Assembly (NCBI GenBank): GCA_022843045.1
Contig: JALHOJ010000008.1
Location: 1-64,000 of the forward strand
DNA: 64,000 bases
Origin: Phycisphaerales bacterium
GTDB taxonomy: Bacteria; Planctomycetota; Phycisphaerae; Phycisphaerales; UBA1924
Reading direction: 5' to 3'
The position numbers and the translations under genes were made by a program. Positions 3,472-63,800 of this stretch are shown here, in pieces. Positions within the stretch are counted from its first letter, which is position 1. Each line of letters begins with the position of its first letter. The notes under the pieces were generated by a model that was not told the DNA's origin, did no database searches, and saw nothing but the letters and a program-made list of their open reading frames with translations.

Positions 3472-3523
3472 GAGTCTGGTCTGGAGTTTGGTTTGGCGAG
3501 TTCGGTCGGTTGAGTTTGGTCTG
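3472..3523. repeat. Degenerate tandem 12-mer array (GAGTYTGGTYTG, 4 copies)
   Basis: gagtctggtctg / gagtttggtttg / gagttcggtcgg / gagtttggtctg read directly in the noncoding region upstream of the porin. Confidence 0.6.
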
Positions 3524-3748
3524 AAAGGTTCCTGATCGTGTGGATCTGGAATCGTTAAAGGTCTTCAGTGTTTGTCGGGGGCATGTTCAGGAGTTTCGGG
3601 GGGCTGGAGCCTCCCAGGATGTACCCACCCGAGTCGTTCGAACGGTTTTTCTCAGCGTGCGTGCACGCTGGCGTACGACCCGAGTGAGTGCGATTTTCAG
3701 GTATGTCCGGGGGGCATCCCTTCCGGAACTTTAGAAGGAGTCTTTTCG

Positions 3749-4966
3749 ATGGTGCAGAGCAGAACGCTTGTGGTGGTTGCGGGCACGCTGGGCTTCGTCG
3801 CTTCGGCCTTTGCCGGCAACACGGATTTGGTCGCCGATGCTGGCGCTCGTTTGAGCTACCAGGGCGGCGGCACGTACGGTGCGCAGGGTTTCAACATCGC
3901 TGACGCGAGCGGCAACAACCGCCTCACGATCGGTGGTGCGGTGCAGACCCGCTTCAACATCAACGTCCGTGATGACAGCGTCGTTGGCGACACCAACGAC
4001 CTGACCACCGGTTTCGAGAACAGCCTGACCCGTCTCCGCGCGAGCGGCACGGTCGGCACCAGCCAGCTGGGCTATAAGGTCCAGGCGACCTTCAGCGATC
4101 TGTCCGGCGGCTTCGCCCAGATCGATGACGCCTACGGCACCTGGGACTTCCAGAACGGCTGGAACCTCAAGTTCGGTCAGTTCAACCTGCCCGTGATCCG
4201 CGAGATCATGGTCGGCGCGGAAGACCACCTGGGCAGCGACTTCTCCGTCAGCAGCGTCTTCTTCGGCCAGGGCTACAGCCAGGGCATCCAGGCCGGTTAC
4301 ACCGGTGAACAGTTCCGTGCGATGGTTGCCTTCTCCGACGGCGCCGGCACGGCCAACACGACCTTCGAGAGCGATCTCGAGTCGGACTACGCCTTCAGCC
4401 TCCGCCTCGAAGGCCTGCTGATGGGCAGCAACTGGAACCAGTTCAACACCTACACCAGCTGGCAGTCCGAGAGCGGCGACAGCGTCCTCCTGGGCGGTGC
4501 GGTTCACTGGCAGGACGGCGGCGAAACCGGCGGCACGCTCGACAACGAAGTGCTCCTCTACACCATCGACGCGAGCTGGGAAGGCCCCGGCTACAACCTG
4601 ACGGGCGCCTTCTACGGCAACACGATTGAGACCCCCGGCGCGAGCCAGGACAACCTCGGCGCCATGATCCAGGGCGGCTTCTTCTTCAACGATCAGTTCG
4701 AAGGCTTCGCCCGCTACGAAGGCTTCTTCCTCGACAACACCGTGTTCACCAACGACGAAGCCAACTTCGCCTTTGTCGGTGTGAACTACTACGTCCTGCC
4801 CGAGACCAACGCGGCCAAGTTCACCGCGCAGCTCGGCTACGCCCTCGACGACACCGATGAGCTCTTCAGCACCCCCCAGCTCAGCGGCAGCAACAACAAC
4901 GGCTTCCTGGGCCAGGCCACCGACGGCGAGTGGGCCATCCAGCTCCAGTTCCAGCTGGTGTTCTAA
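3749..4966 (+). CDS. Phosphate-selective porin O/P-like outer membrane porin
   Basis: Signal peptide MVQSRTLVVVAGTLGFVASAFA; RLTIGGAVQTRFN, KFGQFNLPVIREIMVGAEDH, FVGVNYYVLPETNAAKFTAQLGY; C-terminal aromatic ending LQFQLVF; SD agaaggag just upstream. Confidence 0.85.
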   Translation: MVQSRTLVVVAGTLGFVASAFAGNTDLVADAGARLSYQGGGTYGAQGFNIADASGNNRLTIGGAVQTRFNINVRDDSVVGDTNDLTTGFENSLTRLRASGTVGTSQLGYKVQATFSDLSGGFAQIDDAYGTWDFQNGWNLKFGQFNLPVIREIMVGAEDHLGSDFSVSSVFFGQGYSQGIQAGYTGEQFRAMVAFSDGAGTANTTFESDLESDYAFSLRLEGLLMGSNWNQFNTYTSWQSESGDSVLLGGAVHWQDGGETGGTLDNEVLLYTIDASWEGPGYNLTGAFYGNTIETPGASQDNLGAMIQGGFFFNDQFEGFARYEGFFLDNTVFTNDEANFAFVGVNYYVLPETNAAKFTAQLGYALDDTDELFSTPQLSGSNNNGFLGQATDGEWAIQLQFQLVF

Positions 4967-5042
4967 TCATCCCTACCTACACACTCGCCCGGTGCTGATT
5001 CGCGGCTCGTCCGCTCTTCACGCCGGCTGAGAATGCAACTCA

Positions 5043-5079
5043 CGCGGCCGCTCTTCAAGGAGCGGCCGCGTTGTTTTTG
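5043..5079 (+). terminator. Rho-independent terminator downstream of porin
   Basis: Perfect 11-bp stem CGCGGCCGCTC-ttcaag-GAGCGGCCGCG followed by ttgttttt. Confidence 0.85.
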
Positions 5080-5086
5080 GGGAGAA

Positions 5087-5325
5087 GAGACGGAGAGACG
5101 GAGAGACAAAGAGACAAAGAGACAAAGAGACGAAGAGACGAAGAGACGGAGAGACGGAGAGAAGAAGAGACGGAGAGACGAAGTGGGGGGAGGGGGGAAG
5201 TGGAGAAGTCTCGAAGATGTGGGATAGATGAGGGCTAGGGGTGATCGTGAGGGAGTGATGTTCCCAGCAAAGCTTGGCTTTCCCGGTGGCTTGGCCTCTC
5301 CGGCATTTCATCTCTCCGTCTCTTC
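5087..5325. repeat. Element A: 12 tandem octamers GAGACRRA + G-run loop + inverted partner
   Basis: Twelve contiguous 8-mers at 5087-5182, then gtggggggaggggggaagtgg; inverted word atctctccgtctcttcg at about 5310-5325. Confidence 0.85.
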
Positions 5326-61855: not shown

Positions 61856-61934
61856 GTGGCCCGCCCCCAGCATCGAGCGCACAGCGGCCACACGCTACGC
61901 ACTCGAGTACCTGTCCGACCAAGCGACGTTGGCC

Positions 61935-62303
61935 ATGAAGAGATGGGTCATGTACTTCGCGTTACTCGTCGGGCCGACTGCTGGCTTGCTTGTTCTTCGC
62001 GCTCTGTTCCTGATGTCGCTGGATGCCTCTGCCGAAACGCTCTCGCGCGGAGGGTTGATATTGGCGCTGTTTGGGGTGGGCATGATGTGGGCGGTGGTGT
62101 TCTACACAGCATTGGCTTGGCTAGCGATTTGGATGTTGCTGCCACCCGCGGCAATGTGGAATAGATTGAGAAGGACCGCTAAGTCCAATCAATTGAGTCA
62201 CGGCACAACAGAGAAGCAGTGGGTCATCTGGTGGTTGGTGGGATGCGTCATTGCAATTGCCACGGCTCTTGCGATCACTCGACAATTGTGGATGCAACCG
62301 TAA
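61935..62303 (+). CDS. Hypothetical multi-TM membrane protein
   Basis: MKRWVMYFALLVGPTAGLLVLRALFLM... with 3 hydrophobic segments. Confidence 0.55.
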   Translation: MKRWVMYFALLVGPTAGLLVLRALFLMSLDASAETLSRGGLILALFGVGMMWAVVFYTALAWLAIWMLLPPAAMWNRLRRTAKSNQLSHGTTEKQWVIWWLVGCVIAIATALAITRQLWMQP

Positions 62304-62346
62304 CGACAAGTCGATCGGGCTTCGACATAATGAAAACAACCCGACT

Positions 62347-63744
62347 TCACTCGCTGTCGCGTAGATCGACGGTCAGGTCTTTGCGAACTTCGTTGCCGTC
62401 TTTGTCCTTGACTCGCACCCGCACATCCACGCGCTTGCCCAGGAACGCACCCTCGCGTTGCAACGCAAGAATCGCTTCGACGCTGCTGCTCACTTCCTTC
62501 GTGCCCACGCGCTCGATCTGCTGGCCAGATTCAAAGCCCGCCCGGGCCGCGGCGGAGTTGGGCCGCACCCGCGCCACGAACGCCCCGACGTCCGTGTCTC
62601 CCAGCACCATCCCGCCCTGACTCACCAGCATGTCCTGATAGATGCTGGCGAAAACGTCATCGGGCATCTCGCCCAGCGGGAACTTGAGTGTGATGCGGTC
62701 CTTCCCGTCGCGCACCACCACCAGTTCCACATTCGTCCCAGGCCGCTTCGCCGAGATGATGCTGCGAAGATTCTCCGGTCCCTCCACCGCCATGCCGTCG
62801 ATCTCGAGCACAATGTCGCCCTCGCGCAAGCCGCCCTGATCGCTGGGCCCGCCCGGCACTACCGCCTCGATCTGCACGCCCTTGCCGCGGAATATCGAGT
62901 TGTTCACTTCCACCGCGCCGGTCGAGAATCGTACGCCCAGATAGCCCTGTCGCACGGTGCCGGTTTCGATCAACTGCGCTACGCGCGATTCAATAGTCGC
63001 AAGCGGAATCGCGAACGAAATACCGGCGGATTGACCTTCGCCCCCGCCATCGGTCTCCATCGCCGTCGCGATCGCGACGTTCATGCCGACCACGCGCCCC
63101 TGCACATCGATGAGCGGCCCGCCCGAGTTGCCCGGGTTGACAGCCGCGTCGGTCTGGATGAAGTTGGAGATGCCCATGCCGCTGGGGCTGCGGGCGGATC
63201 GGCCCAGGCCCGAGACGATGCCGCTGGACATGCTGAACTTGAAGCCGAAGGGCGAGCCGAACGCGAACACGCGATCGCCCCGCTGCACACGCTCGCCCGT
63301 GGCTCGGTGTGCGGGCACCAGATGATCGCCCGGCTCAACCTTGATCACTGCGATGTCGGAAAGCGGATCGGCCCCGATCACGGTGCCTTCTTCAAGCCGC
63401 CCATCATGAAACTGGATCGTGACGCGCGACACCGGGCCGACCACGTGCGCGTTGGTGATGATGTGACCGGTGTCGTCAAACACCCAGCCCGCCCCGCTTG
63501 CCCCGCGCCAACGTCGCATCTCCACGTGCACCACGCTGGGCTCGACGCTCTCGGCGACGTTCCGCACCGCGTCGTTGACGCGCTGCAGAATGTCATCGCC
63601 CGCGAGCGACTGTCGCGCGAGTTGCACGCGCTCCTGCGTCCGCAAAGCGGCGATCGTCCGCATCGCGCTGGGCACCGCCAGCAACACCGCCCCGGTGGTG
63701 AGCAACACGACGAACGCGGGACCGAAGGTGATGAAGCGGCGCAT
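62347..63744 (-). CDS. HtrA/DegP-like trypsin-type serine protease with two PDZ domains
   Basis: GHIITNAHVVG (His), DPLSDIAVIKV (Asp), AAVNPGNSGGPLIDVQG (Ser); PDZ regions GYLGVRF...GDIVLEIDGMAV and VARVRPNSAAARAGFESGQQIERV. Confidence 0.95.
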   Translation of the reverse strand: MRRFITFGPAFVVLLTTGAVLLAVPSAMRTIAALRTQERVQLARQSLAGDDILQRVNDAVRNVAESVEPSVVHVEMRRWRGASGAGWVFDDTGHIITNAHVVGPVSRVTIQFHDGRLEEGTVIGADPLSDIAVIKVEPGDHLVPAHRATGERVQRGDRVFAFGSPFGFKFSMSSGIVSGLGRSARSPSGMGISNFIQTDAAVNPGNSGGPLIDVQGRVVGMNVAIATAMETDGGGEGQSAGISFAIPLATIESRVAQLIETGTVRQGYLGVRFSTGAVEVNNSIFRGKGVQIEAVVPGGPSDQGGLREGDIVLEIDGMAVEGPENLRSIISAKRPGTNVELVVVRDGKDRITLKFPLGEMPDDVFASIYQDMLVSQGGMVLGDTDVGAFVARVRPNSAAARAGFESGQQIERVGTKEVSSSVEAILALQREGAFLGKRVDVRVRVKDKDGNEVRKDLTVDLRDSE

Positions 63745-63753
63745 GAATGAATG

Positions 63754-63800
63754 TGGGAGGCGTTGGGAGTGGGGGAGTGGGGGGGCGGGGGGAGGCGGGT
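63754..63800. repeat. Element J: G-rich word array (ggcgttgggagtgggggagtgggggggcggggggaggcggg)
   Basis: Direct reading, immediately upstream of the htrA-like gene. Confidence 0.6.

Follow-up and report, generated by a model that had tools for sequence, protein, structure and literature searches.

Word palindromes in a Phycisphaerales genome as probable miniature relatives of IVP and GxxExxY gene cassettes

Described systems and the elements of this genome

The intervening sequences (IVSs) that carry an S23/IVP reading frame within the 23S rRNA genes of Salmonella, Leptospira and Coxiella are characterised by stem-forming inverted ends, an optional IVP gene, a sporadic distribution and insertion in loops; in the Coxiella IVS, GACAGAT heptamers precede the S23 frame (PMC4990558). 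The same features are found in the word palindromes described here, in which an array of short, degenerate tandem words is followed by a spacer and by the inverted complement of an array built from the same word. They were recognised in a window of 64,000 nucleotides (positions 1 to 64,000 of contig JALHOJ010000008.1) from a Phycisphaerales bacterium whose draft genome (GCA_022843045.1; 4.08 Mb, 147 contigs) is 91% complete. The word palindromes have inverted complementary ends, and longer cassettes in the same genome contain an IVP gene. Unlike the 23S rRNA IVSs, however, these elements occur genome-wide, between genes and inside protein genes, and most carry no gene; moreover, GxxExxY, a second gene family, has the same design here. 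The elements of the window carry no gene themselves and are intergenic or in protein genes, not in the 23S rRNA tip helix.

Short tandemly repeated repetitive (STRR) sequences of cyanobacteria and the TAACTGA heptamers of Beggiatoaceae likewise consist of tandem words of ~7 nt with a patchy distribution and apparent horizontal spread, and for the Beggiatoaceae heptamers it was stated that "no mechanism is evident" (PMC4679880). They differ in that published descriptions treat them as direct repeats and name no gene partner; on cyanobacterial plasmids, we found heptamer arrays on the flanks of IVP genes. Rickettsia palindromic elements are short, palindromic and located in frame within protein genes, as are the elements here, but each of their families has one consensus, whereas the arms of the present elements are word arrays that differ between lineages; we know of no gene partner for the Rickettsia elements. 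As with miniature inverted-repeat transposable elements (MITEs) and insertion sequences, gene-less copies share inverted ends with longer, gene-bearing relatives, but here the spacers are unrelated, the ends turn over in concert, no target duplication was established, and the longer relatives carry IVP or GxxExxY rather than a transposase. Repetitive extragenic palindromic (REP) sequences and bacterial interspersed mosaic elements (BIMEs), with their REP-associated tyrosine transposases (RAYTs), are also dispersed short hairpins in intergenic gaps with a partner gene, but both the partner genes and the sequence grammar differ.

Word arrays around two gene families

What is new is that genes are flanked by word arrays, and that these genes belong to two families. 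One is IVP, the 23S-rRNA-IVP/S23 four-helix-bundle protein (PF05635), which is associated with words of ~7 nt; the other is GxxExxY (PF13366/TIGR04256), assigned to the PD-(D/E)XK nuclease family and associated with CACRGAG words spaced 8-10 nt. We conclude that most of the word palindromes are probably non-autonomous miniatures related to IVP and GxxExxY cassettes, with word ends that turn over in concert. The original prediction, made from the window alone, had proposed a dispersed and probably non-autonomous element class with word turnover, which is supported by our results, but it missed the second partner, GxxExxY, and the type-specific vocabulary. It had also regarded the words as specific to each locus; they do differ between loci, but not arbitrarily, following two grammars tied to the two gene families.

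The genome contains five IVP and three GxxExxY genes, of which four and two, respectively, lie inside inverted word arrays; the fifth IVP gene is in weaker arrays, and the third GxxExxY gene is at a contig end. When the two flanks of each locus were compared with crossed flank pairs (threshold, at least eight shared inverted 8-mers), the loci of the window's phylum were positive in 28/35 cases for IVP (crossed pairs, 24/1190) and 22/32 for GxxExxY (71/992). In named genomes, which for GxxExxY covered many bacterial phyla and methanogen-related archaea, the figures were 48/80 against 458/6320 for GxxExxY and 11/18 against 8/306 for IVP, the 18 IVP loci having been located by motif. One grammar, TT(C/A)ACCRC-RGAG-N-CRC-RGAG-N-CRC-RGAG, was found at both ends of GxxExxY across those genomes. 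The dominant repeat lag was 7 or 14 nt at 46 of 60 IVP loci and 8-10 nt at 78 of 112 GxxExxY loci. In a survey of 201 genomes of the phylum, CACRGAG arrays were present in 61 of the 101 with GxxExxY and 11 of the 100 without it (counts uncorrected for relatedness). One member of the phylum, G105 (12.3 Mb), has 430 CACRGAG triple-word matches but only two PF13366 genes, which points to very many gene-less copies.

Gene-flanking word arrays were found in many bacterial phyla, on cyanobacterial plasmids and in one 23S rRNA gene. The last of these is on an Azospirillum plasmid, where an IVP gene lies between inverted word arrays inside what appears to be the helix-45 region, a context recognised from the sequence and not by a model. 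The occurrence of IVP genes within inverted word arrays supports the earlier suggestion of a link to 23S rRNA IVSs and four-helix-bundle proteins. The alignment of GxxExxY proteins retains D..ExK-type residues, and the predicted structure has a predicted local distance difference test (pLDDT) score of 96; IVP matches the solved structures 2gsc and 2rld. There was no match to the PADLOC models of anti-phage defence. The open-access library that we searched yielded no link between word arrays and these cassettes except for the heptamers in one rRNA IVS. In one paper of that library, GxxExxY is mentioned solely as a neighbour of a reverse transcriptase. The word array upstream of GxxExxY is open in frame in several cases (e.g., L072, L076, L080 and L084), encoding peptides such as HRDTETQR; annotated GxxExxY starts may for this reason include translated words.

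The palindromes themselves were scanned for as clusters of inverted 8-mer pairs, with one fifth-order Markov simulation of the genome as the control. Clusters of 10 or more pairs distributed over two or more diagonals numbered 179 in the genome and 7 in the simulation, and those with at least 15 pairs on any number of diagonals numbered 125 and 0; the dispersed family read from the window is thus real. Paired arrays were convergent in 90 cases and divergent in 1. Most palindromes can be assigned to about a dozen lexical families with between 2 and 33 copies each. The arms (25-45 nt) hardly differ within a family, whereas its spacers are unrelated, with matches in no more than 19 spacer pairs, several of them to other repeats or overlapping elements. 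Captured sequence was rejected as an explanation of the spacers, 14/83 of which had another match in the genome, several being other repeats.

Gene-less palindromes use the words of gene-bearing cassettes in the same genome or in close relatives. The largest family, F1, consists of 33 gene-less copies, and close relatives of its words surround GxxExxY genes in the congeners G001 and G002; family F4 is tied to IVP via a more distant family member (L284). Words are patchily distributed among species: GAGACGRA arrays gave 111 matches in this genome, 92 in a genome outside its family and 0 in the congener G001, and the reversed control pattern gave almost none. A consensus word search in E. coli gave no match. 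At the level of sequence, then, the association of genes with words, the type-specific grammar and the gene-less copies with the same words are established. This genome also contains dispersed hairpins of another family, GTGGGTCGCCGCGAAGCGGCACCCAC, that has no relation to the word elements (C67:18921-19613, C82:13139-13355 and C114:5906-6106).

Orthologous sites and the elements of the window

Comparison of orthologous sites, again judged from the sequences, establishes presence or absence of cassettes, siting in frame and word differences among congeners at shared sites. In a dnaE-type polymerase gene, an IVP cassette occupies the same linker in G258 and G094 and is missing from G256 and G025; the host frame is open throughout in both cassette-bearing genomes, with IVP in another frame. 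The two IVPs are sisters (98/83), but the words on both arms are GAGACGGA-like in G258 and GGCACGGA-like in G094. Between groES and groEL, the cassettes of G155 and G231 also have sister IVPs (83/86), with the words GGCATC/GGCACC and GGCATT/GGGATT, respectively. Different words at one site fit one insertion event after which the words changed in concert; a possible alternative is that related cassettes were inserted there twice. Between groEL and dnaJ in genus g23, two genomes have a GxxExxY cassette and two have ~75 bp instead; at this junction in L179 (G256), where congeners have the cassette or nothing, we noted by eye a macro-domain-like open reading frame (ORF).

Three elements of the window lie in frame in the valS gene, all on the plus strand. 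Element D (12361-12392) is one GGCACTGGGCATC array without a close inverted partner; in the congener G002, the same loop has a similar peptide, apparently encoded by the same word. Element E (12949-13031) is a GGCACTGGGCATC palindrome, and element F (13324-13415) is a GAGACGAA palindrome with an IVP-type word. At the loop of element E, most relatives that have a palindrome have a different one (GGCACTGGGCATC here, GTGACGAA in G001, CGGCATTCGG in G003 and AGTGGCAAAG in G013), and other relatives are empty. The 23S rRNA IVSs are removed from the RNA by RNase III; here, the open host frames of valS and dnaE suggest that the elements are translated through. Other kinds of insertion were also seen in ValS. 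Eight genomes (L236, L237, L238, L239, L245, L246, L250 and L254) have in-frame insertions of ~190-230 aa at the loop of element D, several being recognisable RAYT-like Y1 transposase ORFs with hairpins. At one ValS loop, a hairpin unit, CCCCCATTCGGGGCCCCGG, occurs 4, 1 or 0 times when L391 (3240-3359) is compared with L389, L377 and L379; the metagenome relatives with varying counts are ~85-90% identical.

The other elements are also on the plus strand, except for element G. Element A (5084-5326) is intergenic, with a GAGACGRA word array, a 132-nt spacer and the inverted array; A and F share this IVP-type word, which in G258, a genome of the same family, is found on the flanks of an IVP gene. 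Beside element A, a perfect GC-rich hairpin followed by a T-run (5042-5071) is likely the terminator of the upstream porin-like gene. Element B (8173-8353), in the gap between a SIS-domain gene and a GHMP-kinase gene, is of the GxxExxY type: its TTGAACGCAGAGGAAGACAGAG arms, whose outer complementarity is locus-specific, equal those around the GxxExxY gene at C67:21336-21923. Element C (10802-10937), upstream of valS, combines a CCACGGATTTGCGCGGATAGACGCGGAT palindrome with CTCCGTGG words; its GxxExxY-type words are shared with the GxxExxY cassette at C97:945-1469. Element G (34058-34230, minus strand) is a CGGCATTCGGGATTCGG palindrome with an IVP-like word, located between the two domains of a Radical SAM/CofH_C gene (33639-35090, minus strand) whose frame is open through it. 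Element H (52425-52518), a GATGATGGGATG palindrome, fills the gap from an AAA/ParA-type gene to an epimerase gene, and element I (55003-55034) is a solitary GGGCATCGGGCAC array with no inverted partner nearby.

Of the nine loci originally proposed, A, B, C, E, F, G and H were located by independent tools (inverted repeats and tandem arrays) as inverted arrays close to where they had been placed, D and I proved to be single arrays, and two further candidates, J (63754-63800) and an array at 3472-3523, are both weak. That some words are shared by more than one locus (A with F; D, E and I) was likewise confirmed. The word of D and E resembles those of two IVP cassettes, C14 and the groE cassette of G155; that of G resembles the word of the G231 groE cassette. 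Every palindrome of the window but H can thus be given a plausible type, elements C, D, E and G being typed on word resemblance.

Alternative explanations and the proposed mechanism

Mobility of the cassettes is what we infer from their distribution, and several other explanations bear on the same data. Genome-wide gene conversion could homogenise the arms of old, fixed elements with little current insertion, the nuclease driving conversion rather than transposition. Identical arms with unrelated spacers would fit this explanation, as would the word differences that affect both arms of orthologous cassettes, but presence and absence at orthologous sites within one genus shows gain or loss, and the words occur at many unrelated sites; we consider this explanation unlikely. 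In-situ slippage with quasi-palindrome correction would build word hairpins at loops and gene ends without any mobile element, leaving the genes as passengers. In its favor, the arrays are degenerate tandem repeats, the arms of family F2 co-vary locally, and heptamer copy number differs among Coxiella IVS strains (PMC4990558). However, the same arms of 20-45 nt recur at unlinked loci, a word abundant in a distant species is missing in a congener, gene-bearing cassettes occupy a site in some genomes and are missing from the orthologous site in others, and the gene-word grammar is common to several phyla, leaving slippage already disfavoured and, in our estimate, quite improbable.

It is very unlikely that the elements are REP/BIME-like hairpins mobilised by RAYT (TnpA-REP) transposases. 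RAYT-like ORFs do occur in the valS genes of relatives at the loop of element D, and REPs are likewise gene-less hairpins with variable spacers; but the ORFs of the relatives are flanked by other hairpins (of the GTGGGAC..GTCCCAC type, among others) and not by word arrays, which flank IVP and GxxExxY instead, the genome itself not having been searched for RAYT. Spread by reverse transcriptase, as originally proposed, found no support, the 91%-complete genome having no RVT_1 (PF00078) match. Fold-back self-copying, also proposed, is not general, because no reverse transcriptase was found and, within F1, the two arms of a single element resemble each other no more (0.922) than do arms of different elements (0.932), although family F2 shows an excess. 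Insertion into pre-existing hairpins would be marked by outward complementarity, the excess of which was slight at GxxExxY loci and clear in F2 only.

Several observations weigh against the interpretation of the palindromes as miniature relatives of IVP and GxxExxY cassettes. Target-site duplications could not be established, and for no word palindrome did we obtain an empty site that was base-exact at high identity; the close metagenome valS pairs were distinguished by other loops or by a hairpin repeat rather than by word palindromes. Solitary arrays are numerous, though our exact patterns overcount them. About 40% of GxxExxY-bearing genomes lack the exact CACRGAG pattern, which also tracks the presence of IVP, and p-values are optimistic since the compared genomes share phylogeny. 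The best PDB folds for GxxExxY, Cas4 and other PD-(D/E)XK nucleases, are weak matches (best E, 0.017), and to our knowledge no catalytic activity has been described for IVP. Ordinary copy-paste transposition should also copy the spacer, whereas arms within a family are the same and spacers differ; unrelated spacers behind identical arms could reflect arm conversion among old copies or the copying of ends without the interior.

On the cassette interpretation, two cassette types would share one design, inverted terminal word arrays around a single small gene: type 1 with an IVP (S23) four-helix-bundle gene and ~7-nt words, and type 2 with a GxxExxY nuclease-like gene and CACRGAG words. The word arrays may be the ends recognised by the encoded protein, which would also move the miniatures in trans, and cassettes and miniatures would enter tolerant loops and linkers, possibly as hairpins. 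Homogenisation would extend to all units of both arms, such that a lineage's word drifts in concert but its gene and site are retained. More tentatively, IVP cassettes, GxxExxY cassettes and word palindromes may form one pan-prokaryotic class of mobile elements without a classical transposase, characterised by inverted arrays of a word that the element's own small protein recognises, as many as hundreds of copies without a gene in one genome, in-frame entry into essential genes and concerted rewriting of words, with rRNA IVSs and some cyanobacterial heptamer repeats as special cases; we regard this broader proposal as an open possibility, slightly more doubtful than not.

If true, this would trace 23S rRNA IVSs, unexplained heptamer repeats and many GxxExxY and four-helix-bundle genes annotated without a function back to one origin, and the mobility of these elements would become directly testable. 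The cassette interpretation would also account for the low-complexity insertions that lie in frame in ValS and other essential proteins. It is unusual in evolution for nearly all word units of both arms to change in concert at a fixed site, and this suggests coevolution of a protein with its sites.

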